From Xestospongia bergquistia (Eukaryota > Porifera > Demospongiae > Haplosclerida > Petrosiidae): a stretch of 64,000 nt of DNA. The stretch covers positions 4,538,775 through 4,602,774 of the forward strand of contig OZ014418.1 of NCBI GenBank assembly GCA_963965975.1, written 5' to 3'. Under the pieces are notes generated by a model, which ran no database searches, was not told where the DNA came from, and saw nothing but the letters and a program-made list of their open reading frames with translations. This document shows, piece after piece, positions 3,170 to 35,460 of the stretch. How positions within the stretch are numbered: position 1 is the stretch's first letter; each line of letters begins with the position of its first letter. Position numbers and translations under genes: made by a program.

Positions 3170-3182
3170 AGTCCTTTAGACT
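3170..3182. other. Short dyad in a typical monomer (AGTC/GACT)
   Basis: AGTC, a CTTTA loop, then GACT: 4-bp arms around 5 bases. It is intact in monomers with the GACTGAGCAG, GACTGACCAG or GACTTATCAG variable segment. In GACCTATCAG and GAATGAGCAG monomers the outer pair is lost. Confidence 0.75.
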
Positions 3183-3186
3183 GAGC

Positions 3187-3203
3187 AGTTTACTTTATAA
3201 ACT
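3187..3203. other. Short dyad AGTTTA/TAAACT in a typical monomer
   Basis: AGTTTA, a CTTTA loop, then TAAACT: 6-bp arms around a 5-base loop. Present in most monomers of both arms. The TTTACAAAC subtype shortens it. Confidence 0.8.
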
Positions 3204-3223
3204 TTACTCAATAGTCTAAACCT

Positions 3224-3252
3224 TCTAAAGTCTTTAAATTAAAGACTTTAGA
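3224..3252. other. 29-bp near-perfect palindrome in a typical left-arm monomer
   Basis: TCTAAAGTCTTTAA, one central A, TTAAAGACTTTAGA: 14-bp perfect arms around a single base. This is the strongest symmetry in the monomer and is intact or nearly intact in most of the roughly 445 copies. Frequent variants are TCTTTAATTTAAAGA at the centre and ACTCTTTAA or GACTTCAGAG in one arm. In single-stranded DNA or RNA it could fold as a hairpin once the centre opens; as duplex it is a possible two-fold binding site. Both roles are inferences. Confidence 0.9.
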
Positions 3253-4479: not shown

Positions 4480-4720
4480 AACTTCACTCAATAGTCTAAT
4501 CCTTATAAAGTCTTTAAATTAAGACTTTAGAGGGTTAATGCAAACCAACTTACTAAACTAGTAATGACAGTTTATATATTTAGTTTCATAGAGTCCTTTA
4601 TACTGACCAGTTTACTTTATAACTTCACTCAATAGTCTAAACATTCAAAACTCTTTAATCTTATGACTTTATAGTGTTAATGTAAACAAACTTACTGAAC
4701 TTTTAATAGCAGTTTATTTC
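4480..4720 (+). repeat. TAATCC / ACTAGTAAT / TTCAAAACTC variant cassette, left-arm copy
   Basis: Neighbouring monomers carry linked rare variants: GTCTAATCC, GGGTTAATG, AAACTAGTAATGACAG, a TTTCATAGAG and GACCAG body, ATTCAAAACTC, AATGTAAAC and GAACTTTTAATAGCAG. The same linked set recurs at about 11,046-11,286 (inside block copy 2), at 25,620-25,850, and many times in the right arm as its reverse complement. It serves as a marker of common descent. Confidence 0.85.
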
Positions 4721-7700: not shown

Positions 7701-7904
7701 CTGTTAATAACAGTTTATTTAGTTAGTTTCACAGAGTCCTTTAGACTGACCAGTTTACTTTATAAACTTCGCTCAATAGTCTAAACCTTCTAAAGTCTCT
7801 AATTTAAAGACTTTAGAGTATTAATGCAAACCAACTTACTGAACTGTTAATAACTGTTCATTTCTTTAGTCCCATAGAGTCCTTTAGACTGAGCAGTCTA
7901 CCGT

Positions 7905-13900: not shown

Positions 13901-14470
13901 AAACTTTACTCAATAGTCTAAAGCTTCTAAAGTCTTTAAATTAAAGACTTAAGAGTGTTAATGCAAACCAACTTACTAAACTGTTAACAGCAGTTTATTT
14001 AGTTAGTTTCATAGAGCCCTTTAGACTGAGCTGTTTACTTTATAAAAATCACTCAATACTCTAAACCTTCGAAACTCTTTAATTTAAAGACTTCAGAGTT
14101 TTAATGCAAACCAACTTACTAAACTGTTAATAACAGTTTATTTAGTTAGCCCCATAGAGTCTTTTAGAATGAGCAGTTTACTTTGAAAAACTGACTCAAT
14201 AGTCTAAACCTTCTAAAGTCTTTAAATTAAAGACTTTAGAGTGTTAATGCAAACGAACTTACTAAACTGTTAATAACAGTTTATTTAGTTAGTTTCACAG
14301 AGTCCTTTAGACTGACCAGTTTACTTTATAAACTTCGCTCAATAGTCTAAACCTTCTAAAGTCTCTAATTTAAAGACTTTAGAGTATTAATGCAAACCAA
14401 CTTACTGAACTGTTAATAACTGTTCATTTCTTTAGTCCCATAGAGTCCTTTAGACTGAGCAGTCTACCGT
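7905..14470 (+). repeat. 46-monomer block, copy 2
   Basis: Second tandem copy, offset 6,566 bp. I saw only isolated differences from copy 1: GAGACC at about 2,026 against GAGTCC, CAAACAAAC at about 1,975 against CAAACCAAC, TTCACTCAA against TTCACGCAA at about 9,200, TTTAAAGAC against TTTAAAAAC at about 12,657, and GACCTATCAG against GAACTATCAG at about 12,880. The right edge at about 14,477 returns to GTCTACCGTATAAACTTTA, the sequence found just before copy 2, followed by TCTAAACC rather than TCTCAAC. This is the expected join of a head-to-tail duplication by unequal exchange. Such identity against the general monomer divergence indicates a very recent event, or an assembly error. Confidence 0.93.
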
Positions 14471-16691
14471 ATAAACTTTACTCAATAGTCTAAACCTTCT
14501 AAAGTCTTTAAATTAAAGACTTTACAGTGTTAATGCAAACCAACTTACTGAACTGTTAACAGCAGTTTATTTAGTTAGTCCCATAGAGTCCTTTAGACCT
14601 ATCAGTTTACTTTACAAACTTCACTCAAAAGTCTAAACCTTCTAAAGTCTTTAAATTAAAGACTTTTGAGTGTTAATGCAAAAAAACTTACGTAACTGTT
14701 AACAGTAGTTTATTTAGTTTGTTTCATAGAGTCCTTTAGAAAGAGCTATTTACTTTGTAAACTTCACTCAATACTCTAAACCTTCTAAAGTCTTTAAATT
14801 AAAGACTTTAGAGTGTTAATGCAACCCAACTTACCAGATTGATAATAGCAGTTTATTTCTTTAGTCCCATAGAGTCCTTTAGACTGAGCAGTTTACTTTA
14901 TAAACTTTACTCAATAGTCTAAACCTTCTAAAGTCTTTAAATTAAAGACTTTAGAGTGTTATCGCAAACTAACTTACAAAAGTGTTAATAATAATTTAGT
15001 TAGTTAGTCCCATAGAGTCCTTTTGACCGAGCTGTTTACTTTATAAACTTAACTCAATTGTCTAATCCTTCTAAACTCTTTAATTTAAAGACTTCAGAGC
15101 GTTAATACAAACCAACTTACTAAGCTGTTAATAGCAGTTTATTTAGTTAGTCCCATAAAGTCCTTTAGAATGAGCAGTTTACTTTATAAACTTCACTCAA
15201 TAGTCTAAACCTTCTAAACTCTTCAATTTAAAGACTTTAAAGTGTTAATGCAAACCAACTTACTGAACTGTTAATAGCAGTTCATTTCTTTAATCCCATG
15301 GAGTCCTTAGACTAAGCAGTTTACTTTATAAACTTCACTCAATAGTATAAACCTTCTAAAGTCTTTAAATTAAAGACTTTAGAGTGCTAATGAGAACCAA
15401 CTTACTAAACTGTTAATTGCAGTTTATTTCTTTAGTCCCATAGAGTCCTTTCAACCGAGCAGTTTACTTTATAAACTTTACTCAATAGTCTAAACCTTCT
15501 AAAGTCTTTAAATTAAAGACTTTAGAGTGTTATCACAAACTAACTCACCAAACTGTTAATAATAGTTTGTTTAGTTAGTCCCATAGAGTCCTTTAGACCT
15601 ATCAGTTTACTTTACAAACTTCACTCAATAGTCTAAAGCTTCTAAAGTCTTTAAATTAAAGACATTTGAGTGTTAATGCAAACCAACTTACTAAACTGTT
15701 AACAGCAGTTTATTTAGTTAGTTTCATAGAGTCCTTTAGACTGAGCTGCTTACTTTATAAACTTCACTCAATACTCTAAACCTTCTAAAGTCTTTAAATT
15801 AATGACTTTAGAGCGTTAATGCAAACCAACTTACTAAACTGTTAATAGCATTTTATTTCTTTAGTCCCATAGAGTCCTTTAGACTGAGCAGTTTACTTTA
15901 TAAACATTACTCAATAGTCTAAACTTTGTAAAGTCTTTAAATTAAAGACTTTAGAGTGTTATCGCAAACTAACTTACTAAACTGTTAGTAACATTTTATT
16001 TAGTTAGTCCCATAGAGTCCATTAGACCGAGTTGTTTACTTTATAAACTTCACTCAATAGTCTAAACCTTCTAAAGTCTTTAATTTAAAGACTTCAGAGT
16101 GTTAATGAAAACCAATTTCCTAAACTGTTATTAGCAGATTAATTAGTCCCATAGAGTCCTTTAGAATGAGCAGTTTACTTTATAAAATTTACTCAATAGT
16201 CTAAACCTTCTAGTCTTTAAATTAAATATTTTAGAGTGTAAATACAAGCCAACTTACAAAACTGTTAATAACAGTTTATTTAGTTAGTTTCATAGAGTCC
16301 TTTAGACTGACCAGTTTACTTTATAAACTTCACTAAATAGTTTAAACTTTCTAAACTCTTTAATTTAAAGACTTTAGATTGTTAATGCAAGCCTACTTAC
16401 TGAACTTTTAATAGCAGTTTATTTCTTTAGTCCATAGAGTCCTTTAGACTGAGCAGTTAACTTTATAAACATTACTCAATAGTTTAAACCTTGTAAAGTC
16501 TTTAAATTAAAGACTTTAGAGTGTTAATGCAAACAAACTTACTGAATTGTTAATAGCAGTTTATTTCTTTAGTCCCATAGTGTCCTTTTCATTGAGCAGT
16601 TTACTTTATAAAATTTACTCAATAGTTTAAACCTTCTAAAGTCTTTAAATTAAAGACTATAGAGTGTTAATGCAAACCAACTTACTAAACA
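14471..16691 (+). repeat. Satellite monomers, mixed; holds precursor-like parts of neighbouring blocks
   Basis: About 15-16 monomers. At 15,531-15,800 three consecutive monomers (TATCACAAACTAACTCACC; GACATTTGAGTG; GAGCTGCTTAC) match the start of the 13-monomer repeat that begins at 16,692, about nine monomers upstream of it. At about 16,010-16,560 a run of four monomers (GAGTTGTTTAC; a short monomer with CAGATTAATTAGTCCC; CTTCTAGTC with ATATTTTAGAG; GAACTTTTAATAGCAG) matches 3,600-4,020 and 10,160-10,580 but is clearly more diverged. The stretch also includes GCAACCCAACTTACCAGA near 14,823, whose reverse-complement relative appears in the right arm. Confidence 0.88.
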
Positions 16692-18549
16692 GTTAATAGC
16701 AGTTAATTTAGTTAGTCCCATAGAGTCCTTTAGACCTATCAGTTTACTTTATAAACTTCACTCAATAGTCTAAACCTTCTAAAGTCTTTAAATTAAAGAC
16801 TTTAGAGTGTTATCACAAAATAACTCACCAAACTGTTAATAATAGTTTGTTTAGTTAGTCCCATAGAGTCCTTCAGACCTATCAGTTTACTTTACAAACT
16901 TCACTCAATAGTTTAAAGCTTCTAAAGTCTTTAAATTAAAGACATTTGAGTGTTAATGCAAACCAACTTACTAAACTGTTAACAGCAGTTTATTTAGTTA
17001 GTTTCATAGAGTCCTTTAGACTGAGCTGCTTACTTTATAAACTTCACTCAATACTCTAAACCTTCTAAAGTCTTTAATTTAAAGACTTTAGAGTGTTAAT
17101 GCAAACCAACTTACTGAACTGTTAATAGCTGTTCATTTCTTTCGTCCAATAGAGTCCATTAGACTGAGCAGTCTACCTTATAAACTTTACTTAATAGTCT
17201 AAACCTTCTAAAGTCTTTAAATTAAAGACTTTAAAGTGTTAATGCAAACCAACTTACTGAACTGTTAATAGCAGTTTATTTAGTTAGTCCCATAGAGTCC
17301 TTTAGACCTATCAGTTTAATTTACAAACTTCACTCAATAGCCTAAACCTTCTAAAGTCTTTAAATTAAAGACTTTTGAGTGTTAATGCAAACCAACTTAC
17401 TAAACTGTTAACAGCTGTTTATTTAGTTAGTTTCATAGAGCCCTTTAGACTGAGCTGTTTTCTTTATAAACATCACTCAATACTCTAAACCATCTAAAGT
17501 CTTTAAATTAAAGACTTTAGAGCGTTAATGCAAACCAACTTACTAAACTGTTAATAGCAGTTTATTTCTTTAGTCCCATAGAGTCCTTTGACTGAGCAGT
17601 TTACTTTATAAACTTTACTCTATAGTCTAAACCTTCTAAAGTCTTTAAATTAAAGACTTTAGAGTGTTAATGCAAACAAACTTACAAAACTGTTAATAAT
17701 AGTTTATTTAGTTAGTCCCATAGAGTCCTTTAGACCGAGCTGTCTACTTTATAAAATTCACTCAATAGTTTGAATCTTCTAAACTCTTTAATTTAAAGAC
17801 TTAAGAGTCTTAATGCAAACCAACTTACTAAACTGTTAATAACAGTTTAATTAGTTAGCGCCATAGAGTCCTTTAGAATGATCAGCTTACTTTAAAAAAC
17901 TGACTCAATAGTCTAAACCTTCTAAAGTCTTTAAATTAAAGACATTAGAGTGTTAATGCAAACAAACTTACTAAAGTGTAAATAACAGTTTATTTAGTTA
18001 GTTTCATAGAGTCCTTTAGACTGAACAGTTTACTTTATAATCTTCGCTGAATTGCCTAAACCTTCTAAAGTCTTTAATTTAAAGACTTTAGAGAATTAAT
18101 GCAAACCAACTTACTGAACTGTTAATAGCAGTTTATTTCCTTAGTCCCATAGAGTCCTTTAGAATGAGCAGTTTACTTTACAAACTTCACTAAATAGTCT
18201 AAACCTTCTAAAGTCTTTAAATTAAAGACTTTTGAGTGTTAATGCAAACCAACTTACTAAACTGTTAATTGCAATTAATTTAGTTGGTCCCATAGAGTCC
18301 TTTAGACTTATCAGTTTACTTTACAAACTTCACTCAATAGTCTAAACCTTTTAAAGTCTTTAAATTAAAGACTTTAGAGGGTTAATGCAAACCAACTTAC
18401 TAAACTGTTAGTAGCATTTTATTTCTTTAGTCCCATAGAGTCCTTTAGACTGAGCAGTTTACTTTATAAAATTTACTCAATAGTCTAAACCTTCTAAAGT
18501 CTTTAAATAAAAGACTTTAGAGTGTTGTCACAAACTAACTTACTAAACT
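16692..18549 (+). repeat. 13-monomer higher-order repeat, copy 1
   Basis: Unit of 1,858 bp. Its 13 monomers can be told apart in order by: 1 GACCTATCAG with TATCACAAAATAACTCACC; 2 TAGTTTGTTTAG with GACATTTGAG; 3 TTTCATAGAG with GAGCTGCTTAC; 4 TAGCTGTTCATTTC with GTCTACC; 5 GACCTATCAGTTTAATTTAC; 6 CAGCTGTTTATTTAG with GAGCCC; 7 CTTTAGTCCC with CTCTATAGTC; 8 GACCGAGCTGTCTAC; 9 GCGCCATAGAG with GATCAGCTTAC; 10 GAACAGTTTAC with CTTCGCTGAATTGCC; 11 TTTCCTTAGTCCC with CACTAAATAG; 12 GCAATTAATTTAGTTGG; 13 GTAGCATTTTATTTC with TTGTCACAAAC. This copy lacks one A at about 17,590 (CTTTGACTG against CTTTAGACTG), giving 1,858 rather than 1,859 bp. Confidence 0.95.
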
Positions 18550-20408
18550 GTTAATAGCAGTTAATTTAGTTAGTCCCATAGAGTCCTTTAGACCTATCAG
18601 TTTACTTTATAAACTTCACTCAATAGTCTAAACCTTCTAAAGTCTTTAAATTAAAGACTTTAGAGTGTTATCACAAAATAACTCACCAAACTGTTAATAA
18701 TAGTTTGTTTAGTTAGTCCCATAGAGTCCTTTAGACCTATCAGTTTACTTTACAAACTTCACTCAATAGTCTAAAGCTTCTAAAGTCTTTAAATTAAAGA
18801 CATTTGAGTGTTAATGCAAACCAACTTACTAAACTGTTAACAGCAGTTTATTTAGTTAGTTTCATAGAGTCCTTTAGACTGAGCTGCTTACTTTATAAAC
18901 TTCACTCAATACTCTAAACCTTCTAAAGTCTTTAATTTAAAGACTTTAGAGTGTTAATGCAAACCAACTTACTGAACTGTTAATAGCTGTTCATTTCTTT
19001 CGTCCAATAGAGTCCATTAGACTGAGCAGTCTACCTTATAAACTTTACTTAATAGTCTAAACCTTCTAAAGTCTTTAAATTAAAGACTTTAAAGTGTTAA
19101 TGCAAACCAACTTACTGAACTGTTAATAGCAGTTTATTTAGTTAGTCCCATAGAGTCCTTTAGACCTATCAGTTTAATTTACAAACTTCACTCAATAGCC
19201 TAAACCTTCTAAAGTCTTTAAATTAAAGACTTTTGAGTGTTAATGCAAACCAACTTACTAAACTGTTAACAGCTGTTTATTTAGTTAGTTTCATAGAGCC
19301 CTTTAGACTGAGCTGTTTTCTTTATAAACATCACTCAATACTCTAAACCATCTAAAGTCTTTAAATTAAAGACTTTAGAGCGTTAATGCAAACCAACTTA
19401 CTAAACTGTTAATAGCAGTTTATTTCTTTAGTCCCATAGAGTCCTTTAGACTGAGCAGTTTACTTTATAAACTTTACTCTATAGTCTAAACCTTCTAAAG
19501 TCTTTAAATTAAAGACTTTAGAGTGTTAATGCAAACAAACTTACAAAACTGTTAATAATAGTTTATTTAGTTAGTCCCATAGAGTCCTTTAGACCGAGCT
19601 GTCTACTTTATAAAATTCACTCAATAGTTTGAATATTCTAAACTCTTTAATTTAAAGACTTAAGAGTCTTAATGCAAACCAACTTACTAAACTGTTAATA
19701 ACAGTTTATTTAGTTAGCGCCATAGAGTCCTTTAGAATGATCAGCTTACTTTAAAAAACTGACTCAATAGTCTAAACCTTCTAAAGTCTTTAAATTAAAG
19801 ACATTAGAGTGTTAATGCAAACGAACTTACTAAAGTGTAAATAACAGTTTATTTAGTTAGTTTCATAGAGTCCTTTAGACTGAACAGTTTACTTTATAAT
19901 CTTCGCTGAATTGCCTAAACCTTCTAAAGTCTTTAATTTAAAGACTTTAGAGAATTAATGCAAACCAACTTACTGAACTGTTAATAGCAGTTTATTTCCT
20001 TAGTCCCATAGAGTCCTTTAGAATGAGCAGTTTACTTTACAAACTTCACTAAATAGTCTAAACCTTCTAAAGTCTTTAAATTAAAGACTTTTGAGTGTTA
20101 ATGCAAACCAACTTACTAAACTGTTAATTGCAATTAATTTAGTTGGTCCCATAGAGTCCTTTAGACTTATCAGTTTACTTTACAAACTTCACTCAATAGT
20201 CTAAACCTTTTAAAGTCTTTAAATTAAAGACTTTAGAGGGTTAATGCAAACCAACTTACTAAACTGTTAGTAGCATTTTATTTCTTTAGTCCCATAGAGT
20301 CCTTTAGACTGAGCAGTTTACTTTATAAAATTTACTCAATAGTCTAAACCTTCTAAAGTCTTTAAATAAAAGACTTTAGAGTGTTGTCACAAACTAACTT
20401 ACTAAACT
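18550..20408 (+). repeat. 13-monomer higher-order repeat, copy 2
   Basis: Unit of 1,859 bp with the same 13 subtypes in the same order as copy 1. I saw only isolated differences, such as GAATATTC against GAATCTTC near 19,630 and CAAACGAAC against CAAACAAAC near 19,817. Confidence 0.95.
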
Positions 20409-22267
20409 GTTAATAGCAGTTAATTTAGTTAGTCCCATAGAGTCCTTTAGACCTATCAGTTTACTTTATAAACTTCACTCAATAGTCTAAACCTTCTAAA
20501 GTCTTTAAATTAAAGACTTTAGAGTGTTATCACAAAATAACTCACCAAACTGTTAATAATAGTTTGTTTAGTTAGTCCCATAGAGTCCTTTAGACCTATC
20601 AGTTTACTTTACAAACTTCACTCAATAGTCTAAAGCTTCTAAAGTCTTTAAATTAAAGACATTTGAGTGTTAATGCAAACCAACTTACTAAACTGTTAAC
20701 AGCAGTTTATTTAGTTAGTTTCATAGAGTCCTTTAGACTGAGCTGCTTACTTTATAAACTTCACTCAATACTCTAAACCTTCTAAAGTCTTTAATTTAAA
20801 GACTTTAGAGTGTTAATGCAAACCAACTTACTGAACTGTTAATAGCTGTTCATTTCTTTCGTCCAATAGAGTCCATTAGACTGAGCAGTCTACCTTATAA
20901 ACTTTACTTAATAGTCTAAACCTTCTAAAGTCTTTAAATTAAAGACTTTAAAGTGTTAATGCAAACCAACTTACTGAACTGTTAATAGCAGTTTATTTAG
21001 TTAGTCCCATAGAGTCCTTTAGACCTATCAGTTTAATTTACAAACTTCACTCAATAGCCTAAACCTTCTAAAGTCTTTAAATTAAAGACTTTTGAGTGTT
21101 AATGCAAACCAACTTACTAAACTGTTAACAGCTGTTTATTTAGTTAGTTTCATAGAGCCCTTTAGACTGAGCTGTTTTCTTTATAAACATCACTCAATAC
21201 TCTAAACCATCTAAAGTCTTTAAATTAAAGACTTTAGAGCGTTAATGCAAACCAACTTACTAAACTGTTAATAGCAGTTTATTTCTTTAGTCCCATAGAG
21301 TCCTTTAGACTGAGCAGTTTACTTTATAAACTTTACTCTATAGTCTAAACCTTCTAAAGTCTTTAAATTAAAGACTTTAGAGTGTTAATGCAAACAAACT
21401 TACAAAACTGTTAATAATAGTTTATTTAGTTAGTCCCATAGAGTCCTTTAGACCGAGCTGTCTACTTTATAAAATTCACTCAATAGTTTGAATCTTCTAA
21501 ACTCTTTAATTTAAAGACTTAAGAGTCTTAATGCAAACCAACTTACTAAACTGTTAATAACAGTTTATTTAGTTAGCGCCATAGAGTCCTTTAGAATGAT
21601 CAGCTTACTTTAAAAAATTGACTCAATAGTCTAAACCTTCTAAAGTCTTTAAATTAAAGACATTAGAGTGTTAATGCAAACGAACTTACTAAAGTGTAAA
21701 TAACAGTTTATTTAGTTAGTTTCATAGAGTCCTTTAGACTGAACAGTTTACTTTATAATCTTCGCTGAATTGCCTAAACCTTCTAAAGTCTTTAATTTAA
21801 AGACTTTAGAGAATTAATGCAAACCAACTTACTGAACTGTTAATAGCAGTTTATTTCCTTAGTCCCATAGAGTCCTTTAGAATGAGCAGTTTACTTTACA
21901 AACTTCACTAAATAGTCTAAACCTTCTAAAGTCTTTAAATTAAAGACTTTTGAGTGTTAATGCAAACCAACTTACTAAACTGTTAATAGCAATTAATTTA
22001 GTTGGTCCCATAGAGTCCTTTAGACTTATCAGTTTACTTTACAAACTTCACTCAATAGTCTAAACCTTTTAAAGTCTTTAAATTAAAGACTTTAGAGGGT
22101 TAATGCAAACCAACTTACTAAACTGTTAGTAGCATTTTATTTCTTTAGTCCCATAGAGTCCTTTAGACTGAGCAGTTTACTTTATAAACTTTACTCAATA
22201 GTCTAAACCTTCTAAAGTCTTTAAATAAAAGACTTTAGAGTGTTGTCACAAACTAACTTACTAAACT
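20409..22267 (+). repeat. 13-monomer higher-order repeat, copy 3
   Basis: Unit of 1,859 bp, same order. Differences include AAAATTGAC against AAAACTGAC near 21,615, TTAATAGCAATTAAT against TTAATTGCAATTAAT near 21,984, and ATAAACTTTACTC against ATAAAATTTACTC near 22,190. After 22,267 the sequence no longer starts a fourth copy: it reads AATAGTTTATTTAGTAAG where copies 2 and 3 begin with AGCAGTTAATTTAGTTAG. Confidence 0.94.
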
Positions 22268-25200
22268 GTTAATAATAGTTTATTTAGTAAGTCCCATAGA
22301 GTCCTTTAGACCTATCAGTTTACGTTACAAACTTCACTCAATACTCTAAAGCTTCTAAAGTTTTTAATTTAAAGACTTTTGAGTGTTAATGTAAACAAAC
22401 TTACTAAACTGTTAACAGCAGTTTATTTAGTTAGTTTCATAGAGCCCTTTAGACTGAGCTGTTTACTTTCAGAACTTCACTCAATACTCTAAACCTTCTA
22501 AAGTCTTTGAATTAAAGACTTTAGAGCGTTAATGCAAACGACTTACTAAACTGTTAATAGCAGTTTATTTCTTTAGTCCCATATAGTCCTTTAGACTGAG
22601 CAGTTTACTTTATAAACTTTATTCAATAGTCTAAACCTTCTAAAGTCTTTAAATTAAAGACTTTAAAGTGTTAATGCAAACTAACTTATAAAACTGTTAA
22701 TAATAGTTTACTTATTTAGCCCCAAAGAGTCCTTTAGACCGAGCTCTTTACTTTATAAACTTCACGCAATAGTCTACAGTTTCTAAATTCTTTATTTTAA
22801 AGACTTCAGAGTCTTAATGCAAACCAACTTACTAAACTGTTAATAACAGTTTATTTAGTTAGCCCAATAGAGTACTTTAGAATGAGCAGTTGACTTTAAA
22901 AAATTGACTCAATAGTCTAAACCTTCTAAAGTCTTTAAATTAAAAACTTTAGAGTGTTAATGCAAACGAACTTACTAAACTGTTAATAACTTTTTATTTA
23001 GTTAGTTTCATAGAGTCCTTTAGACTGACCAGTTTACTTTATAAACTTCGCTCAATAGTCTAAACCTTCTAAACTCTTTAATTTAAAGACTTTAGAGTGT
23101 TAATGCAAACCAACTTACTGTACTGTTAATTGCAGTTTATATGTTTAGTCCCATAGAGTCCTTTAGACTGAGCAGTTTACTTTATAAACATTACTCAATA
23201 GTTTAATACTCCTAAAGTCTTAAAATTAAAGACTTTAGAGTGTTAATGCAAACGAACATACTAAACTGTTAATAACAGTTTATTTAGTTAGTTTAATAGA
23301 GTCCTTTAGACTGACCAGTTTACTTTATAAACTTCGCTCAATAGTCAAAACCTTCAAAGTCTTTAAATTAAAGACTTTAGAGTGTTAATGCAAACAAACT
23401 TACTAAACTGTTAATAGCAGTTAATTTAGTTAGTCCCATAGAGTCCTTTAGACCTATCAGTTTACTTTACAAACTTCACTCAATAGTCTAAACCTTCTAA
23501 AGTCTTTAAATTAAAGACTTTAAAGGGTTAATGCAAACCAACTTACTAAACTGTTAATAGCAGTTTATTTCTTTAGTCCCATAGAGTCCTTTAGACTGAG
23601 CAGTTTACTTTATAAGCTTTACTCAATAGTCTAAACCTTCTAAAGTCTTTAAATTAAAGACTTTAGAGTGTTATCACAAACTAACTTACTAAACTGTTCA
23701 TAATAGTTTATTTAGTTAGTCCCATAGAGTGCTTTAGTCCTATAAGTTTACTTTACAAAATTCACTCAATAGTCTAAAGCCTCTAAAGTCTTTAATTTAA
23801 AGACTTTTGAGTGTTAATGCAAACAAACTTACTAAACTGTTAACAGCAGTTTATTTATTTAGTTTCATAGAGCCGTTTAGACTGAGCTGTTTACTTTATA
23901 AACTTCACTCAATACTCTAAACCTTCTAAATTCTTTACATTAAAAAGTTTAGAGCGTTAATGCAAAGCAAATTACTAAACTGTTAATAGCAGTTTATTTC
24001 TTTTCTCCCATAGAGTCCTTTAGACTGAGCAGTTTACTTTATAATCTTTACTTAAATAGTCTATACCTTCTAAAGTCTTTAAATTAAAGACTTTAGAGTG
24101 TTATGCAAACTAACTTACAAAACTGTTAATAATATTTTACTTATTTAGTCCCAAACAGTCCTTTAGACCGAGCTGTTTACTTTATAAACATCACTCAATA
24201 GTCTAAAGCTTCCACACTGTTTAATTTAAAGACTTCAGAGTGTTAATGCAAACCAACTTACTAAACTGTTAATAAGAGTTTATTTAGTTAGCCCCATAGA
24301 GTCCTTTAGAATGAGCAGTTTACTTTAAAAAACTGACTCAAAAGTCTAAAACTTCTAAAATTTTTAAATTAAAGACTTTAGAGTGTTAATGCAAACGAAC
24401 TTACTAAACCGTTAATAACAGTTTCTTTAGTTAGTTTCATAGAGTCCTTTAGACTGACCAGTTTACTTTATAAACTTCGCTCAATAGTCTAAACCTTCTA
24501 AAGTCTTTAATTTAAAGACTTTAGAGTGCTAATGCAAACCAACTTACTGAACTGTTAATAGCAGTTAATTTCTTTAGTCCCATAGAGTCCTTTAGAGTGA
24601 GCAATCTACCTTATAAACATTACTCAATAGTCTAAACCTTCTAAAGTCTTTAAATTAAAGACTTTAAAGTGTTAATCCAAACCAACTAACTGAACTGTTA
24701 ATAGCAGTTTATTTAGTTAGTCCCATAGAGTCCCTAAGACCTATCAGTTTACTTTACAAATTTCACTCAATAGTCTAAACCTTCTAAAGTCTTTAAATTA
24801 AAGACTTTAGAGTGTTAACGCAACCCAACTTACCAGACTGTTAATAGAGTTTATTTCTTTAGTCCCATAGAGTCCTTTAGACTGAGCAGTTTACTTTATA
24901 AACTTTTCTCAATAGTCTAAACCTTCTAAAGTCTTTAAATTAAAGACTTTAGAGTGTTATCGCAAACTAACTTACAAAACTGTTAATAATAGTTTATTTA
25001 TTTAGTCCCATGGAGTCCTTTAGAACGAAGTGTTTACTTTATAAACTTCACTCAATAGTCTAAACCTTAAAAACTCTTTAATTTAAAGACTTCAGAGCAT
25101 TAATGCAAACCAACTTACTAAACTGTTAATAGCAGTTTATTTAGTTAGTCCCATAAAGTCCTTTAGAATGAGCAGTTTATTTTATAAACTTCACTCAATA

Positions 25201-26319
25201 GTCTAAATCTTCTAAACTCTTCAATTTAAAGACTTTAAAGTGTTAATGCTAATCAACTTACTGAACTGTTAATATGAGTTTATTTCTTTAGTCCCATAGA
25301 GTCCTTTAGACTGAGCAGTTTGCTTTATAAACTTTACTCAACAGTCTAAACATTCTAAAGTCATTAAATTAAGGACTTTAGAGTGTTAATGCAAACCAAC
25401 TTACTAAACTGTTAATAGCAGTTTATTTCTTTAGTCCCATAGAGTCCTTTAGACATAGCAGTTTACTTTATAAACTTTACTCAATAGTTTAAACCTTCTG
25501 AAGTCTTTAAATTAAAGACTTTAGAGTGTTAATGCAAACCAACTTACTAAACTGTTAAGAATAGTTTATTACTTAGATCCATAGAGTCCTTTAGAACTAT
25601 CAGTTTACTTTACAAACTTCACTCAATAGTCTAATCCTTCTAAAGTCTTTAAATTAAAGACTTTAGTGGGTTAATGCAAACCAACTTACTAAACTAGTAA
25701 TAACAGTTTATTTAGTTTGTTTCATAGAGTCCTTTAGACTGACCAGTTTACTTTATAAACTTCACTCAATAGTCTAAACTTTCAAAACTCTTTAATTTAA
25801 AGACTTTAGAGTGTTAATGTAAACCAACTTACTGAACTTTTAATAGCAGTTTATTTCTTTAGTCCCATAGAGTCCTTTAGATTGAGCAGTTTACTTTATA
25901 AACATTACTCAATAGTCTAAACCTTCTAAAGTCTTTAAATTAAAGACTTTAGGGAGTTAATGCAAACCAACTTACTAAACTGTTAATAGCAGTTTATTTC
26001 TTTAGTCCCATAGAGTCCTTTAGACTGAGCTGTTTACTTTATAAACTTTACTCAATAGTTTAAACCTTCTAAAGTCTTTAAATTAAAGACTTTAGAGTTT
26101 TAATGCAAACCAACTTACTAAACTGTTAATAGCAGTTAATTTAGTTAGTCCCATAGAGTCCTTTAGACCTATTAGTTTACTTTACAAACTTCACTCTATA
26201 GTCTAAACCTTCTAAAGTCTTTAAATTAAAGACTTTAGAGGATTAATGCAGACAAACTTTCTAAACTGTTAATAGCAGTTTATTTCTTTAGTCCCATAGA
26301 GTGTTATCACAAACAAACA
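22268..26319 (+). repeat. Satellite monomers, mixed, up to the strand switch
   Basis: About 28 monomers without a recent duplication that I can detect. The order of subtypes still follows the 13-monomer scheme loosely (GACCTATCAG, then TTTCATAGAG/GAGCTG, CTTTAGTCCC, GACCGAGCT, GAATGAGCAG, GACTGACCAG). Substitutions and 1-4 base indels are more common here than in the duplicated blocks. This suggests older sequence that has not been homogenised lately. Confidence 0.85.
25620..25850 (+). repeat. TAATCC / ACTAGTAAT / TTCAAAACTC variant cassette, second left-arm locus
   Basis: Carries GTCTAATCC, GGGTTAATG, AAACTAGTAATAACAG, TTTCATAGAG with GACCAG, TTTCAAAACTC, AATGTAAAC and GAACTTTTAATAGC in the same order as 4,480-4,720. 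It differs from that copy by several substitutions, so it is an older paralogue rather than part of the recent 46-monomer duplication. Confidence 0.85.
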
Positions 26320-26345
26320 GTTTCGTAAGTTGGTTTGCATTGACA
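26292..26345. other. Strand-switch junction between the two satellite arms
   Basis: The + monomer reads normally to GTCCCATAGAG, then jumps to GTGTTATCACAAAC, skipping about 80 bp of the monomer. Both broken sites share AGAGT, so an internal deletion at microhomology fits. The + sequence ends at about 26,313-26,320 and the next bases (GTTTCGTAAGTTGG, then TTTGCATTGACACTC) are a monomer on the other strand. The two sides form an imperfect inverted repeat: 26,301-26,318 against 26,329-26,346, 18-base arms with 13 matches around a spacer of about 10 bases. No foreign sequence lies at the junction. Confidence 0.93.
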
Positions 26346-27604
26346 CTCAAAAGTCTTTGATTTAAAGACTTTAGAAGGTTTAGACTATTTAGTGAAGTTT
26401 GTAAAGTAAACTGATAAGTCTAAAGGACTCTATCGGACTAACTAAATAAACCGCTACTAAAAGTTCAGTAAGTTGGTTTGCATTAACACTTTAAAGTCTT
26501 TAATTTAAAGACGTTAGAAGGTTTATACTATTGAGTCTTTTTTTTAAAGTAAACAGCTCATTCTAAAGGACTCAATGGGGCTAACTAAATAAACTGTTAT
26601 TAACAGTTTAGTAAGTTTGTTTGGATTAACACTCTGAAGTCTTTAAATTAAAGAGTTTAGAAGGTTTAGACTATTGAGTGAAGTTTATCAAGTAAAGAGC
26701 TCGGTCTAAAGGACTCTTTGGGACTAACTAAATAAACTATTATTAACAGTTTTGTAAGTTAGTTTGCATTAACTCTCTAAAGTCATTAATTTAAAGACTT
26801 TAGAAGGTTTAGACTATTGAGTAAAGTTTATAAAGTAAACTGCTCAGTCTAAAGGACTCTATGGGACTAAAGAAATCAACTGCTATTAACAGTTTAGTAA
26901 GTTGGTTCGCATTAACGCTCTAAAGTCTTTAATTTAAAGACTTTAGAAGGTTTAGAGTATTGAGTGAAGTTTATAAAGTAAACAGCTCAGTCTAAAGGGC
27001 TCTATGAAACTAACTAAATAAACTGCTGTTAACAGTTTAGTAAGTTGGCTTGAATTAACACTCAAAAGTCTTTAAATTAAAGACTTTAGACGCTTTAGAC
27101 TATTGAGTTAATTTTGTAAAGTAAACTGATAGGTCTAAAGGACTCCATGGGACTAACTGAAAAAACTATTATTAACAGTTTAGCAAGTTAGTTTGTGATA
27201 ACACTCTAAAGTCTTTAATTTAAAGACTTTAGAAGGTTTAGACTATTGAGTAAAGTTTATAAAGTAAACTGCTCAGTCTAAAGGACTCTAAGGGACTAAA
27301 GAAATAAACTGCTATTAACCGTTTAGTAAGTTGGTTTGCATTAACCCTCTAAAGTCTTTAATTTAAAGACTTCAGAAGGTTTAGACTATTGAGTGAAGTT
27401 TGTAAAGTAAACTGATAGGTCTAACGGACTCTATGGGACTAACTAAATTAACTGCTATTAACAGTTTAGTAAGTTGGTTTGCATTAACACTTTAAAGTCT
27501 TTAATTTAAAGACTTTAGAAGGTTTAGACTATTGAGTAAAGTTTATAAAGTAAACTGCTCAGTCTAAAGGACTCTATGGGACTAAAAAAATAAATTGCTA
27601 TTAA
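26320..27604 (-). repeat. Right-arm monomers next to the switch, keeping the left-arm subtype order
   Basis: About nine monomers. Read as reverse complement and moving away from the switch, the first are: a GACTTATCAG/CACTAAATAG type, a GAATGAGC type with TTTAAAAAAAAGACTC, a GACCGAGCTC type, a CTTTAGTCCC type, a GAGCCC type and a GACCTATCAG type. This is monomers 11/12, 9, 8, 7, 6, 5 of the left-arm 13-monomer unit in the expected reverse order, with number 10 missing. Sequence divergence from the left arm is substantial. Confidence 0.75.
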
Positions 27605-28600
27605 AAGTCTGGTGAGTTGGGTTGCATTAACAATCTAAAGTCTTTAATTTAAAGACTTTAGAAGGTTTAGAGTGTTGAGTGATGTTTACAAAGTAAACAG
27701 CTCTTTCTAAAGGACTCTATGATACTAACTAAATAAACTGATGTTAACAGTTTCGTAAGTTGGTTTGCATTATCACTCAAAAGTGTTTAATTTAAAGACT
27801 TTAGAAGGTTTAGACTATTGAGTGAAGTTTGTAAAGTAAACTGACAGGTCAAAAGGACTCTATAGGACTAACTAAATAAACTGCTATTAACAGTTCAGTA
27901 AGTTGGTTTGCATTAACACTTTAAAGTCTTTAATTTAAAGAATTTAGAAGGTTTAGACTATTGAGTAAAGTTTATAAGGTAGACGGCTCAGTCTAAAGGA
28001 CTCTATGGGACTAAAGAAATCAACTGCTATTAACAGTTTCGTAAGTCGGTTTGCATTAACACTCTGAAGTCTTTAAATTAAAGACTTTAGAAGGTTTAGA
28101 CTATTGAGCGAAATTTATAAAGTAAACTGGTCAGTCTAAAGGGCTCTATGAAACTAACTAAATAAACTGATGTGAACAGTTTAGTAAGTTGGTTTGCATT
28201 AACACTCAAAAGTCTTTAATTTAAAGACTTGAAAGGTTCAGAGTATTGAGTGAAGTTTATAAAGTAAACAGCTCAGTCTAAAGGGCTCTATGAAACTAAC
28301 TAAATAAACTGCTGTCAACAGTTTAGTAAGTTGGTTTGCATTAACACTTAAAAGTCTTTAAATTAAAGACTTTAGAAGCTTTAGACTATTGAGTGAAGTT
28401 TGTAAGGTAAACTGATAGTTCTAAAGGACACTATGGGGATAACTAAATTAACTGCTATTTCTAGTTTAGTAAGTTGGTTTGCATTAACCCTTTAAAGTCT
28501 TAATGTAAAGACTTTAGAAGGATTAGACTATTGAGTGAAGTTTGTGAAGTAAACTGAAAGGTCTAAAGGACTCTATGGGACTAACTAAATAAACTGTTAT
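27605..28600 (-). repeat. Inverted relative of left-arm 14.27-14.86 kb and 8.14-8.54 kb
   Basis: Seven monomers match left-arm blocks by linked rare variants in reverse complement. At 27,605-27,620, GGTGAGTTGGGTTGC mirrors GCAACCCAACTTACCAGA (14,823); at 27,747, TTTCGTAAGTTGG mirrors the CTTACGTAACTG neighbour (14,690); at 27,980, AAGGTAGACGGC mirrors GTCTACCGTATAAAC (14,463). At 28,297-28,480, GCTGTCAACAG, GACACTATGGGGATAAC, GCTATTTCTAGTTTAG, GAAAGGTC and GTGAAGTAAAC together mirror 8,140-8,420 (and 1,574-1,854). Between the two halves the right arm joins what are distant blocks on the left. Confidence 0.85.
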
Positions 28601-31090
28601 TAACAGTTTAGTAAGTTGGTTTGCATTAGCATCTAAAGTCTTTAATTTAAAGACTTTAGAAGGTTTAAACAATTGAGTAAAGTTTATAAAGTAAACTCCT
28701 CAGTTTAAAGGACTCTATTGGACTAAAAAAATAAACTGCTATTAACAGTTTAGTAAGTTGGTTTGCATTAACCCTCTAAAGTCTTTAATTTAAAGACTTT
28801 AGAAGGTTTAGACTATTGAGTGAAGTTTTTTAAAGTAAACTGATAGGTCTAAAGGACTCTATGGTACTAACTAAATTAACTGCTATTAACAGTTTAGTTA
28901 GTTCGTTTGCATTAACACTCTAAAGTCTTTAATTTAAAGACTTTAGAAGGTTTAAACTATTGAGTAAACTTTATAAAGTAAACTGCTCAGTCTAAAGGAC
29001 TCTATGGGACTAAAGAAATAAACTGCTATTAACAGTTCAGTAAGTTGGTTTGCATTAACACTCTAAAGTCTTTAATTTAAAGACTTTAGAAGGTTTAGAG
29101 TATTGGGTAAAGTTTATATGGTAGACTGCTAAGTTTAAAGGACTCTATGGGACTAAAGAAATGAAATGCTATTAACAGTTCAGTAAGTTTGTTTGCATTA
29201 ACACTCTAAAGTCTTTAAATTAAAGACTTTAGAAGGTTTAGACTATTGAGTAAAGTTTATAAAGTAAACTGCTCAGTGTAAAGGACTCTATGGGACTAAA
29301 GAAATAAACTGCTATTAACAGTTATAGTAAGTTTTTTTGCATTAACGCTCTAAAGTCTTTAATTTAAAGACTTTAGAAGGTTTAGATTATTGAGTGAAGT
29401 TTATAAAGTAAACAGCTCTGTCTAAAGGGCTCTACGAAACTAAATAAATAAACTATTATTAACAGTTTAGTAAGTTAGTTTGTGATAACACTCTAAAGTC
29501 TTTAATTTAAAGACTTTAGAAGTTTTAGACTATTTAGTAAAGTTTATAAAGTAAACTGCTCAGTCTAAAGGACTCTATGGGACTAAAGAAATAAACTGCT
29601 ATTAACAGTTTAGTAAGTTGGTTTGCATTAACACTCTAAAGTCTTTAATTTAAAGACTTTAGAAGGTTTAAACTATTCAGTAAAGTTTATAAAGTAAACT
29701 GCTCAGTCTAAAGGACTCTATGGGACTAAAGAAATAAACTGCTGTTAACAGTTTAGTAAGTTGGTTAGCATTAACCCTCTAAAGTCTTTAATTTAAAGAC
29801 TTTAGAAGGTTTAGACTGTTGAGTGAAGTTTTTTAAAGTAAACTGATAGATCTAAAGGACTCTATGGGACTGACTAAATTAACTGCTATTAACAGTTTAG
29901 TAAGTTCGTTTGCATTAACACTCTAAAGTCTTTAATTTAAAGACTTTAGAAGGTTTAAACTATTGAGTAAAGTTTATAAAGTAAACTGCTCAGTCTAAAG
30001 GACTCTATGGGACTAAAGAAATAAACTGCTATTAACAGTTTAGTAAGTTGGTTTGCATTAAGACTCTAAAGTCATTAATTTAAAGACTTTAGAAGGTTTA
30101 GACTATTGAGTAAAGTTTATAAAGTAAACTGCTCAGTGTAAAGGACTCTATGGGACTAAAGATATAAACTGCTATTAACAGTTTAGTAAGTTTGTTTGCA
30201 TTAACGCTCTAAAGTCTTTAATTTAAAGACTTTAGAAGGTTTAGAGTATTGAGTGAAGTTTATAGAGTAAACAGCTCATTCTAAAGGGCTCTATGAAACT
30301 AACTAAATAAACTATTATTAACAGTTTAGTAAGTTAGTTTGTGATAACACTCTAAAGTCTTTAATTTAAAGACTTTAGAAAGTTTAACTATTGAGTAATG
30401 TTTATAAAGTTAACTGCTCGGTCTAAAGGACTCTATGGGACTAAAGAAATAAACTGCTATTAACAGTTTAGTAAGTTGGTTTGCATTAACCCTCTAAAGT
30501 CTTTAATTTAAAGACTTTAGAAGGTTTAGACTATTGAGTGAAGTTTGTAAAGTAAACTGATAGGTCTAAAGGACTCTATGGGACTAACTAAATTAACTGT
30601 TATTAACAGTTTAGTCAGTTTCTTTGCATTAACACTCTAATGTCTTTAATTTAAAGACCTTAGAAGGTTTAGACTATTCAGTAAAGTTTATAAAGTAAAC
30701 TGCTCAGTCTAAAGGACTCTATGGGACTAAAAAAATAAACTGCTATTAACAGTTTAGTAAGTTGGTTTGCATTAACCCTCTAAAGTCTTTAATTTAAAGA
30801 CTTTAGAAGGTTTAGACTATTGAGTGAAGTTCGTAATGTAAACTGATAGGTCTAAAGGACTCTATGGGATAACCCAATTAACTGTTATTAACATTTTAGT
30901 AAGTTTGTTTGCATTAACACTCTAAAGTCTTTAATTTAAAGACTTTAGAAGGTTTGAACTATTGAGTAATGTCTATAAAGTAAACTGCTCAGTCTAAAGG
31001 ACTCTATGGGACTAAAGAAATAAACTGCTATTAACAGTTTAGTAAGTTGGTTTGCATTAAGACTCTTAAGTCTTTAATTTAAAGACTTTA
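28601..31090 (-). repeat. Right-arm monomers with a 7-monomer periodicity
   Basis: About 17 monomers. A subtype with GTGAAGTTTTTTAAAGTAAA occurs at 28,825 and 29,828 (offset 1,003 bp, seven monomers), and its neighbours also correspond (TTAGTTCGTTTGC types, CTCAGTGTAAAGG types and GGCTCTA types). The copies have many differences, so this is an older 7-monomer duplication. Confidence 0.7.
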
Positions 31091-33240
31091 GAAGCTTTAG
31101 ACTATTGAGTGAAGTTTGTATAGTAAACTGATAGGTTTAAAGGACTCAATGGGACTAACTACATAAACTATTATTAACAGTTTGGTAAGTTAGTTTGCGA
31201 TAACACTCTAAAGTCTTTAATTTAAAGACTTTAGAAGGTTTAGACTATTGAGTGAAGTTTATATAGTAAACTGCTCAGTCTAAAGGACTTTATGGGATTA
31301 AAGAAATGAACTGCTATTAACAGTTCAGTAAGTTTGTTTGCATTAACTCTTTAAAGTCTTTAAATTGAAGAGTTTAGAAGGTTTAGACTATTGAGTGAAG
31401 TTTATAAAGTAAACTGCTCATTCTAAAGGACACTATGGGACTAACTAAATAAAATGCTATTAACAGTTTAGTAAGTTGGTTTGCATTAACGCTCTGAAGT
31501 CTTTAAATTAAAGAGTTTAGAAGGTTTAGACTATTGAGTGAAGTTTATAGAGTAAACAGTTCGGTCTAATGGACTCTATGGGACTAACTAAATAAACTAT
31601 TTTTAACAGTTTTGTAAGTTAGTTTGCGATAACTCTCTAAAGTCTTTATTTTAAAGATTTTAGAAGGTTTAGACTATTGAGTAAAGTTTATAAAGTAAAA
31701 TGCTCAGTCTAAAGGACTCTATGGGACTAAAGAAATAAACTGCTATTAACAGTCTGGGGAGTTGGGTTGCATTAACAATCTAAAGTTTTTAATTAAAAGA
31801 CTTTAGAAGCTTTAGAGTATTGAGTGAAGTTTACAAAGTAAACACCTCTTTCTAGAGGACTCTATGAGACTAAATAAATAAACTGCTGTTAACAGTTTAG
31901 TAAGTTGGTTTCCATTAACACTCGAAAGTCTTTAATTTAAAGACTTTAGAAGGTTTAGACTATTGAGCGAAGTTTGTAAAGTAAACTGACAGGTCTAAAG
32001 GACTCTACGGGACTAACTAAATAAACTGCTATTAACAGTTCTGTAAGTTGGTTAGCATTAACACTTTAAAGTCTTTAATTTAAAGACTTTAGAAGGTTTA
32101 GACTATTGAGTAAAGATTATAAGGTAGACCGCCAAGTCTAAAGGTCTCTATAGGACTAAAGAAATAAACTGCTATTAACAGTTTAGTAAGTTTGTTTGCA
32201 TTAACGCTCTAAAGTCTTTAATTTAAAGACTTTAGAAGGTTTAGAGTATTGAGTGAAGTTTATAAAGTAAACAGCTCAGTCTAAAGGGCTCAATGAAACT
32301 AACTAAATAAACTGCTGTTAACAATTTAGTAAGTTTGTTTGCATTAACACTCAAAAGTGTTTAAATTAAAGACTTTAGAAGGTTTAGACTATTGAGTGAA
32401 GTTTGTAAAGTAAACTGATAGGTCTAAAGGACTCTATGGGACTAACTAAATAAACTATTATTAACAGTTTAGTAAGTTAGTTTGTGATAACACTCTAAAG
32501 TCTTTAATTTAAAGACTTTAGAAGGTTTAGACTATTGAGTAAAGTTTACAAAGTAAACTGCTCAGTCTAAAGGACTCTATGGGACTAAAGAAATAAATTG
32601 CTATTAACAGTTTAGTAAGTTTGTTTGCATTAACCCTCTAAAGTCTTTAATTTAAAGACTTTAGAAGGTTTAGACTAATGGGTAAAGTTTATAAGGTAGA
32701 CTGCTAAGTTTATAGGACTCTATGGGACTAAAGAAATGAACTGCTATTAACAGTTCAGTAAGTTTGTTTGCATTAACACTCTAAAGTCTTTAAATTAAAG
32801 ACTTTAGAAGGTTTAGACTATTGAGCGAAGTTTATAAAGTAAACTGGTCAGTTTAAAGGACTCTATGAAACTAACTAAATAAACTGTTATTAACAGTTTA
32901 GTAAGGTCGTTTGCATTAAAACTCTAAAGTCTTTAATTTAAAGACTTTAGAAGGTTTAGACTATTGAGTAAAGTTTATAAAGTAAACTGCTCAGTGTAAA
33001 GGACTCTATGGGACTAAAGCAATAAACTGCTATTAACAGATTAGTAACTGTTTGCATTAACGCTCTAAAGTCTTTAATTTAAAGACTTTAGAAGGTTTAG
33101 AGTATTGAGTGAAGTTTACAAAGTAAACAGCTCAGTCTAAAGGGCTCTATGAAACTATCTAAATAAACTGCTGTTAACAGTTTAGTAAGTTGGTTTGCAT
33201 TAACACTCAAAAGTCTTTAAATTAAAGACTTTATAAGGTT
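31091..33240 (-). repeat. 15-monomer block, copy 1
   Basis: Block of about 2,143 bp. Diagnostic sites recur downstream: GGTTTAAAGGACTCAATGGG at 31,135 and 33,277; GGACTTTATGGGATTAAAG near 31,285 and 33,428; CTGGGGAGTTGGGTTGC at 31,754 and 33,897; CACCTCTTTCTAGAGG near 31,834 and 33,978. Identity is lower than in the 36-monomer block, with several substitutions per monomer in places. Confidence 0.85.
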
Positions 33241-35460
33241 TAGACTATTGACTGAAGTTTGTAAAGTAAACTGATAGGTTTAAAGGACTCAATGGGACTA
33301 ACTAAATAAACTATTATTAACAGTTTGGTAAGTTAGTTTGTGATAACACTCTAAAGTCTTTAATTTAAAGACTTTAGAAGGTTTAGACTATTGAGTGAAG
33401 TTTATATTGTAAACTCCTCAGTCTAAAGGACTTTATGGGATTAAAGAAATGAACTGCTATTAACAGTTCAGTAAGTTGGTTTGCATTAACCCTTTAAAGT
33501 CTTTAAATTGAAGAGTTTAGAAGGTTTAGACTATTGAGTGAAGTTTATAAAGTAAACTGCTCATTCTAAAGGACACTATGGGACTAACTAAATAAACTGC
33601 TATTAACAGTTTAGTAAGTTGGTTTGCATTAACGCTCTGAAGTCTTTAAATTAAAGAGTTTAGAAGGTTTAAACTATTGAGTGAAGTTTATAGAGTAAAC
33701 AGTTCGGTCTAAAGGACTCTATGGGACTAACTAAATAAACTATTTTTAACAGTCTTGTAAGTTAGTTTGCGATAACTCTCTAAAGTCTTTATTTTAAAGA
33801 TTTTAGAAGGTTTAGACTATTGAGTAATGTTTATAAAGTAAAATGCTCAGTCTAAAGGACTCTATGGGACTAAAGAAATAAACTGCTATTAACAGTCTGG
33901 GGAGTTGGGTTGCATTAACACTCTAATGTCTTTAATGTAAAGACTTTAGAAGCTTTAGAGTATTGAGTGAAGTTTACAAAGTAAACACCTCTTTCTAGAG
34001 GACTCTATGAGACTAACTAAATAAACTGCTGTTAACAGTTTAGTAAGTTGGTTTGCATTAACACTCAAAAGTCTTTAATTTAAAGACTTTAGAAGGTTTA
34101 GACTATTGAGCGATGTTTGTAAAGTAAACTGACAGGTCTAAAGGACTCTACGGGACTAACTAAATAAACTGCTGTTAACAGTTCTGTAAGTTGGTTTGCA
34201 TTAACACTTTAAAGTCTTTAATTTAAAGACTTTAGAAGGTTGAGACTATTGAGTAAAGATTATAAGGTGGACTGCCAAGTCTAAAGGTCTCCATGGGACT
34301 AAAGAAATAAACTGCTATTAACAGTTTAGTAAGTTTGTTTGCATTAACGCTCTAAAGTCTTTAATTTAAAGACTTTAGAAGGTTTAGAGTATTGAGTGAA
34401 GTTTATAAAGTAAACAGCTCAGTCTAAAGGGCTCTATGAAACTAACTGAATAAACTGCTGTTAACAATTTAGTAAGTTTGTTTGCATTAACACTCGAAAG
34501 TCTTTAAATTAAAGACTTTAGAAGGTTTAGACTATTGAGTGAAGTTTGTAAAGTAAACTGATAGGTCTAAAGGACTCTATGGGACTAACTAAATAAACTA
34601 TTATTAACAGTTTAGTAAGTTAGTTTGTGATAACACTCTAAAGTCTTTAATTTAAAGACTTTAGAAGGTTTAGACTATTGAGTAAAGTTTACAAAGTAAA
34701 CTGCTCAGTCTAAAGGACTCTATGGGACTAAAGAAATAAATTGCTATTAACAGTTTAGTAAGTTGGTTTGCATTAACCCTCTAAAGTCTTTAATTTAAAG
34801 ACTTTAGAAGGTTTAGACTATTGGGTAATGTTTATAAGGTAGACTGCTAAGTTTAAAGGACTCTACGGGACTAAACAAATAAACTGCTAATAACAGTTCA
34901 GTAAGATGGTTTGCATTAACACTTTAGAGTCTTTAATTTAAAGACTTTAGAAGGTTTAAACTATTGGGTAAAGTTTATAATGTAGACTGCTAAGTTTAAA
35001 GGACTCTATGGGACTAAAGAAATGAACTGCTATTAACAGTTCAGTAAGTTTGTTTGCATTAACACTCTAAATTCTTTAAATTAAAGACTTTAGAAGGTTT
35101 AGACTATTGAGCGAAGTTTATAAAGTAAACTGGTCAGTTTAAAGGACTCTATGAAACTAACTAAATAAACTGTTATTAACAGTTTAGTAAGGTCGTTTGC
35201 ATTAACACTCTAAAGTCTTTAATTTAAAGACTTTAGAAGGTTTAGACTATTGAGTAAAGTTTATAAAGTAAACTGCTCAGAGTAAAGGACTCTATGGGAC
35301 TAAAGCAATAAACTGCTATTAACAGATTAGTAACTGTTTGCATTAACGCTCTAAAGTCTTTAATTTAAAGACTTTAGAAGGTTTAGAGTATTGATTGAAG
35401 TTTACAAAGTAAACAGCTCAGTATAAAGGGCTCTATGAAACTAACTAAATAAACTGCTGT
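33241..35460 (-). repeat. 15-monomer block, copy 2, with one extra monomer
   Basis: Matches 31,091-33,240 at offset about 2,143 bp up to about 34.8 kb and about 2,286 bp (16 monomers) beyond it. The difference is one added monomer: two adjacent monomers with TTATAAGGTAGACTGC-like or TTATAATGTAGACTGC-like segments (about 34,830 and 34,975) stand where copy 1 has one. The last seven monomers (about 34,460-35,460) also resemble the first seven of the following 36-monomer block at offset about 1,000 bp. Confidence 0.8.

Follow-up and report, generated by a model that had tools for sequence, protein, structure and literature searches.

How did two long arms of one satellite come to meet in opposite orientations, and what does the place within the repeat at which they meet say about the origin of the switch? 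The window, the whole stretch of 64,000 nt that was analysed (C8:4538775-4602774, in a genome of 146,460,797 bases in 21 contigs), was satellite throughout, composed of a single 143-bp repeat (TRF), and contained no N bases. The strand switch described by the first-pass annotation was real, with TRF, GC skew and alignment agreeing on a minus left arm and a plus right arm (Table 1); the sign of the GC skew changed at ~26 kb, the same place as the orientation. The ~184 and ~263 opposed monomers first counted were also recovered, both by TRF and by wrap-around alignment, where monomers longer than 130 bp were taken as full. Mean identity to the consensus was 0.924 for left-arm and 0.927 for right-arm monomers (wrap-around alignment). 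Monomers compared in pairs were 0.871 identical inside the left arm, 0.881 inside the right arm and 0.874 between left and right, and both arms were therefore one repeat population.

Table 1. Features of the window and distribution of the strand-switch junctions read (positions are those of the window; J, junction; D, intramonomer dyad)
Feature	Position	Strand	Details
Left arm, 143-bp satellite	4..26302	-	TRF 184.2 copies; 184 full monomers by wrap-around alignment
Right arm, identical satellite	26316..64000	+	TRF 263.6 copies; 262 full monomers by wrap-around alignment
Strand-switch junction J0	26292..26345	.	TRF, alignment; word unique in genome
AGAGT microhomology bordering the 82-bp deletion in the last left monomer	26298..26302	-	
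Satellite stub between deletion and right arm	26303..26318	-	Last base at monomer phase 13; TCA allele
10-nt loop of imperfect hairpin	26319..26328	.	Stems 26301-26318 and 26329-26346, 13/18 matches
Dyad D2 copy, 29-nt near-palindrome	26346..26374	+	Consensus stem 14, loop 1
Dyad D1 copy, TAAACTG-7 nt-CAGTTTA	26590..26610	+	Intramonomer inverted repeat; centre 10 nt from J0 centre
Junctions on C8			J0, J1, J6
Junctions on C2			J2, J4, J7, J8
Junctions on C3			J5, J12
Junctions on C5			J3
Junctions on C9			J13-J16
Junctions on C10			J9, J10
Junctions on C12			J11

The last monomer of the left arm kept CATAGAGT and then lacked 82 bp, from one AGAGT to the next, in agreement with the loss of about 80 bp at AGAGT noted at first. 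The stub that followed (GTTATCACAAACAAAC, 26303-26318) ran into a right arm that started as AACAGTTTCG at 26316, with the AAC at 26316-26318 common to both. Read as GTGTTATCACAAACAAAC, the stub had 14 of 18 matches to the minus consensus at one phase, against 8 matches at the runner-up phase. It carried a minority allele, and its word GTGTTATCACAAAC occurred in the window 3 times on the plus strand (junction copy included) and 23 times on the minus strand. Because the stub had the TCA allele and the right-arm monomer facing it the common ATG type, the stub was no simple copy of the facing monomer. Phases at J0, assigned by hand, were 13 for the left side and 3 for the right; giving AAC to the right arm changes them to 16 and 0 (phase difference 10, range 10-16 along the AAC overlap; centre at phase 8); automatic alignment skipped the stub and gave 96 and 0 (47 nt).

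An imperfect hairpin around about 10 bases had been described at the junction, and a repeat of this size had been said to be able to form a very large hairpin or cruciform. The small hairpin was present, with a 10-nt loop, and was the best fold of the 46 nt, yet its stability was no better than that of shuffled sequence (74 of 200 shuffles folded equally well; z -0.25). The 171-nt stretch folded better than 200 of 200 shuffles (z -3.5); in that fold the right arm paired with the intact left monomer at ~26243-26270, the stub was unpaired with the right arm, and the second stem was the ordinary palindrome of the repeat. The hairpin at J0 is nothing more than opposed satellite. The very large hairpin found no footing: the arms were not mirror copies, their longest exact inverted match was 272 bp (1666-1937 or 8232-8503 against 28233-28504, ~20-26 kb apart) and the small hairpin was unstable, so that only imperfect pairing is expected, of the kind open to this satellite wherever two stretches of it are opposed. 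None of the longest exact inverted matches around J0 was centred on the junction. The 272-bp match between the arms may reflect exchange between opposite orientations.

A young fold-back of the palindrome type, from snap-back replication or sister fusion, would have duplicated the array in mirror image, and the fold-back geometry and short spacer (the 10-nt loop) at J0 are what such an event would leave. The arms at J0, however, were not mirror copies. Identity averaged over the 10, 20, 50 or 150 mirrored monomer pairs nearest the junction, calculated at several offsets, was flat over offsets (0.84-0.90 for the first 10 monomers; 0.869-0.877 over 150). The first eight mirrored pairs ranged from 0.82 to 0.95, against a non-mirror mean of 0.871, and the nearest relatives of the monomers flanking J0 were found elsewhere in the arms. 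With mirrored pairs at background at every offset tried, a young fold-back palindrome was rejected for J0, and this origin is very improbable. Mirror identity was also not clearly raised at any of the junctions compared (J0-J6 and J8-J13; 1-8 mirrored pairs each, one pair at J5). Only J10 was slightly raised, its mirrored pairs scoring 0.905 and 0.908 where the 7 other pairs available had a mean of 0.859 and reached at most 0.887.

The same result bears on the fear that J0 is an artefact of assembly or library, whether through a misjoin in the repetitive array or through a read from a chimeric fold-back molecule. Satellite arrays are easily misassembled and the sequence comes from one assembly, but a fold-back molecule would give near-perfect mirror arms, and the background identity of the mirrored pairs in the assembled sequence therefore argues against a fold-back read. 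J0 also has a specific deletion and a stub in a window free of N, and comparable but non-identical junctions were present on seven contigs, all of which makes an artefact improbable.

Direct block duplications were observed in the arms (1338-14491, 16914-22188, 35460-45758 and 52056-57202), with exact stretches of up to 3.4 kb and offsets of 6,566, 1,858/1,859, 5,144 and 2,724 bp. They are recent local amplification of multi-monomer blocks. Duplications this large are satellite turnover of the kind able to erase a mirror.

The switch had been called single, which was correct within the window but not for the array on C8, where at least three switches were found in sampled pieces (hidden pairs between samples are possible). 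This array measured ~506 kb (~4.5007-5.0063 Mb), with non-satellite DNA on both sides (twenty 10-kb samples). Its orientation was plus to 4527.08 kb, minus to 4565.09 kb (J0), plus in every sampled piece to 4933.63 kb and then, in the pieces sampled, minus as far as the end of the array. The left arm was thus part of a 38.0-kb minus block that started at C8:~4527080 (J1), ~11.7 kb left of the window; the minus orientation of C8:4530000-4538774 rests on two matches, both minus, with most of that stretch unread. The plus block to the right of J0 sampled plus for ~368 kb, to C8:~4933630.

The left edge of the array (C8:4500700-4510000) belonged to another subfamily, with 18 occurrences of ACTTAATGG and 0 of ACTCTATGG, and the interior pieces counted had mostly ACTCTATGG; edge and interior subfamilies are a record of layered array growth. 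Non-satellite DNA interrupted arrays near switch points (C8:4529706 onwards; C12:4319600-4321389), possibly as mobile-element insertions. Open frames flanking the C8 array encoded, among others, a TPR region of leprecan and a HECT domain that narrowly passed its cut-off, so that the host is probably an animal. At C8:5.10 Mb, long open frames contained a short motif repeated in both directions (NTGILG-like and IPVLPT-like), a minisatellite of coding length. The start of the contig (C8:1-1399) was N in the parts displayed (first 300 or first 400 bases).

Across the genome, exact words of the satellite occurred 758 times (41-mer) and 166 times (73-mer). Among the matches listed, the satellite was on C1, C2, C3, C8, C9, C10 and C12, with one region on each; a similarity search added C5, at 4.47 and 5.22 Mb. 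The 41-mer was in plus orientation in 54 of 54 matches listed on C1, and the C1 array may have few or no switches. From its size and placement, the 143-bp array is probably pericentromeric. The telomere words TTAGGG x5 and TTAGG x6 had no match in the assembly, which unassembled ends could explain, and the beetle telomere word TCAGG x5 had one match, in the interior of C2.

Seventeen switch junctions were read, on 7 contigs (C2, C3, C5, C8, C9, C10 and C12; Table 1). Junctions were chosen by bracketing between opposite-strand matches, with their sequence disregarded, apart from J0, which was preset, and J1, which lay in one of the twenty samples; some wider brackets, e.g., C5:4475767-5221825, were left out. 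An 18th junction (C12:4318766-4322200) was dropped, with 3 of 4 90-base probes not satellite. Neighbouring junctions read were 7.4 to 435 kb apart. With switches this common, the premise that tandem satellites keep one orientation over long distances fails in this genome and J0 is not exceptional: this satellite has a whole population of switches to which J0 belongs, and the point of interest is where those switches lie within the repeat. Each of the 17 junctions had a distinct sequence, and phases were mostly distinct too; the junction word of J0 and the pattern of J2 each occurred at one place in the genome.

The phase difference between the two sides was ≤16 nt in 10 of the 17 junctions (9 of 16 without J0). 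The chance of such a difference was 0.231 with independent phases, 0.205-0.25 with microhomology of ≥2-5 bp and 0.364 with ≥6 bp. Nominal P was 0.0016 for independent phases, 0.0031 for microhomology of a few bp (chance 0.25) and 0.05 for ≥6 bp; without J0 it was 0.004, 0.0075 and 0.08 under the same three nulls. Differences of ≤7 nt were observed in 8 of 17 (nominal P = 1.5e-4) and of ≤31 nt in 12 of 17 (P = 0.025). All these P values should be read as nominal, since the analysis tried several cut-offs, nulls and sets of dyads, and junctions on the same contig may be non-independent.

The strongest inverted repeats computed from the consensus were D2 (stem 14, loop 1, centre 45), D1 (TAAACTG-CTATTAA-CAGTTTA; stem 7, loop 7, centre 141) and D3 (stem 6, loop 5, centre 88). 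Among the 12 junctions with a difference of ≤31 nt, 7 had a fold-back centre no more than 6 nt from D1 or D2 (P = 0.0012; 0.015 with D3 as a third target), and none had one that close to D3. In 4 of the remaining 5 junctions, one breakpoint lay no more than 5 nt from D1 or D2 (P = 0.018). The cleanest junction, at C2:12307586, was a long near-perfect palindrome centred on D2, and at C2:12320748 a clean example for D1 spanned that dyad as a near-perfect palindrome; when its exact pattern was searched for elsewhere, the C2 site was the only match. J0, centred 10 nt from D1, was therefore outside the 7 close ones. J3 was 14 nt from D1, and J10, J11 and J15 folded at other, weaker palindromes of 4-6 bp (AGCT, TTAA and TTAATGAATTAA), off D1 and D2.

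Follow-up was mixed. Of J14, J15 and J16, which were read after the idea had been formed, one (J15) had a phase difference of ≤16 nt, with a difference of 0 and a position off the dyads. J14 had its centre 4.5 nt from D1 and a difference of 21 nt; J16 was messy (difference 34; one side at phase 88), with neither a small difference nor a dyad position. Conservation was higher in the D2 core (monomer phases 34-56) than elsewhere in the monomer (0.960 vs. 0.918; 444 window monomers of 135-150 bp), possibly owing to a protein site or to biased exchange.

The reading preferred for J0, at a probability of about 0.55, is a genuine old switch, made by a break or template-switch join that was seeded by intramonomer palindromes and later eroded. 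In the order of events and the enzyme pathway that we infer, a polymerase template switch or a break at or beside D1 would have joined plus and minus copies near equal phase. A 19-nt tip would have been lost between the two AAC copies of a clean, C2-like D1 junction, and 82 bp between two AGAGT copies; later turnover of the satellite, through block duplications and unequal exchange, would have removed any mirror copy. The clean C2 junction at D1 less 19 nt between its AAC copies reads CCAACAGTTTAGTAAGTTGG, which comes close to CAAACAAACAGTTTCGTAAGTTGG at J0. Between J0 and that clean D1 junction, the phase sums differ by 19, which is what a 19-nt tip deletion requires and hence fits a D1-derived origin. 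The suggestion of the first-pass annotation that J0 is the scar of an inversion or a fold-back-type join is upheld by the small phase difference, by the microhomology and by the presence, 38.0 kb to the left, of a partner junction whose phases agree to ~20 nt. The scar stands, but it is one of many switches and makes no giant perfect hairpin, so that neither the uniqueness nor the folding first attributed to it was retained.

A single cut-and-flip inversion of the 38.0-kb block (J1, C8:~4527080, to J0), closed by end joining and with no special part for the palindromes, is the closest competitor and is possible at clearly less than even odds. Such an inversion demands equal phase pairs at its two ends, and those of J1 (1-10, 137-128) and J0 (16-13, 0-3) were equal to ~20 nt, a gap for which small deletions could account; repeat divergence was also equal on all sides of J1 and J0 (0.92-0.93 to consensus). 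Both ends of the block lie near D1 and their phases are similar, which makes one inversion and two separate switches about equally likely. Against the inversion, this block was the only one of the 4 reversed blocks read at both ends in which the end phases roughly agreed; those of C2 J4/J2, C2 J7/J8 and C9 J14/J15 did not. The monomers just before J1 were of ACTTAAT types, whereas 6 kb on either side of J0 lacked ACTTAATGG, which argues weakly in the same direction.

The palindrome-seeded join is itself opposed by several observations. No copying of the facing arm was evident and the stub allele differed from it; J0 was 10 nt from D1; J10, J11 and J15 were off the dyads; the follow-up was mixed; and the excess of differences ≤16 nt had P = 0.05 under the strictest null.

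Opposed arms of one satellite have been described as macro-dyad symmetries of pericentromeric satellites in Tribolium madens, T. freemani and T. castaneum, and, according to the authors of that paper, macro-dyad satellite arrays are documented only in Tribolium (PMC13081366). The likeness extends to an abundant pericentromeric satellite, opposed subarrays of kb to tens of kb, short inverted repeats in the units and a degenerate unit at the switch (PMC13081366). Opposed subarrays of one satellite in this size range were found here (a 38.0-kb minus block beside a plus block; 17 junctions). By analogy, reversals might be a selected architecture, with opposed arms and dyads helping to specify or organise the centromere, as has been proposed for the Tribolium macro-dyads (PMC13081366). 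The occurrence of the satellite in one region on most contigs, among the matches listed, and the higher conservation of D2 would suit this presumed link to the centromere. The junctions read here had varying sequences and spacings, in contrast to T. madens with its conserved inversion sites, and the uniformly plus 41-mer matches listed on C1 suggest an array with perhaps few or no switches; a selected architecture is accordingly unlikely. It is proposed, tentatively and at somewhat under even odds, that hot spots for inversion are built into the monomer: the two strongest of its internal palindromes would repeatedly seed switches, the array would keep turning parts of itself around, and macro-dyads would arise as a by-product, outside the beetle genus and without a conserved inversion element.

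Orientation changes in centromere-like satellites are now emerging from complete assemblies. Many distinct switches that point to monomer palindromes, in a genome that by its size and telomere words is probably outside Tribolium, make the question of their origin directly testable. A limited search of the open literature by title returned nothing tying satellite strand switches to intramonomer palindromes.

Primate alpha-satellite resembles the present arrays in its orientation changes inside centromeric arrays, with monomers reoriented at breakpoints (PMC11062924). It differs in the scale of its inversions, which are large (3.2 Mb in orangutan) and include polymorphic inverted blocks in macaque, as against 7.4 to 435 kb between the junctions read here; in the alpha-satellite passages of that paper, breakpoints were not tied to monomer palindromes (PMC11062924). 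Short dyads are an established theme in work on centromeric DNA (PMC9070824). The dyad-rich centromeric DNA of Kasinathan and Henikoff, as described in PMC9070824 and PMC13081366, is alike in having short dyad symmetries in a centromere-like satellite; in those descriptions the work concerns centromere specification and not the origin of strand switches. In T. madens, an element of ~110 bp gave rise to the satellites, and TmSat2 has monomers of 704 bp (PMC13081366), whereas the monomer here is 143 bp. No recurrent conserved inversion-site sequence was found among the 17 junctions read. The inversion sites of T. madens TmSat1 fall into two main, highly conserved types, with 2044 and 3486 copies that are 98-99% alike (PMC13081366), whereas the junctions here are individual, many of them at intramonomer dyads.
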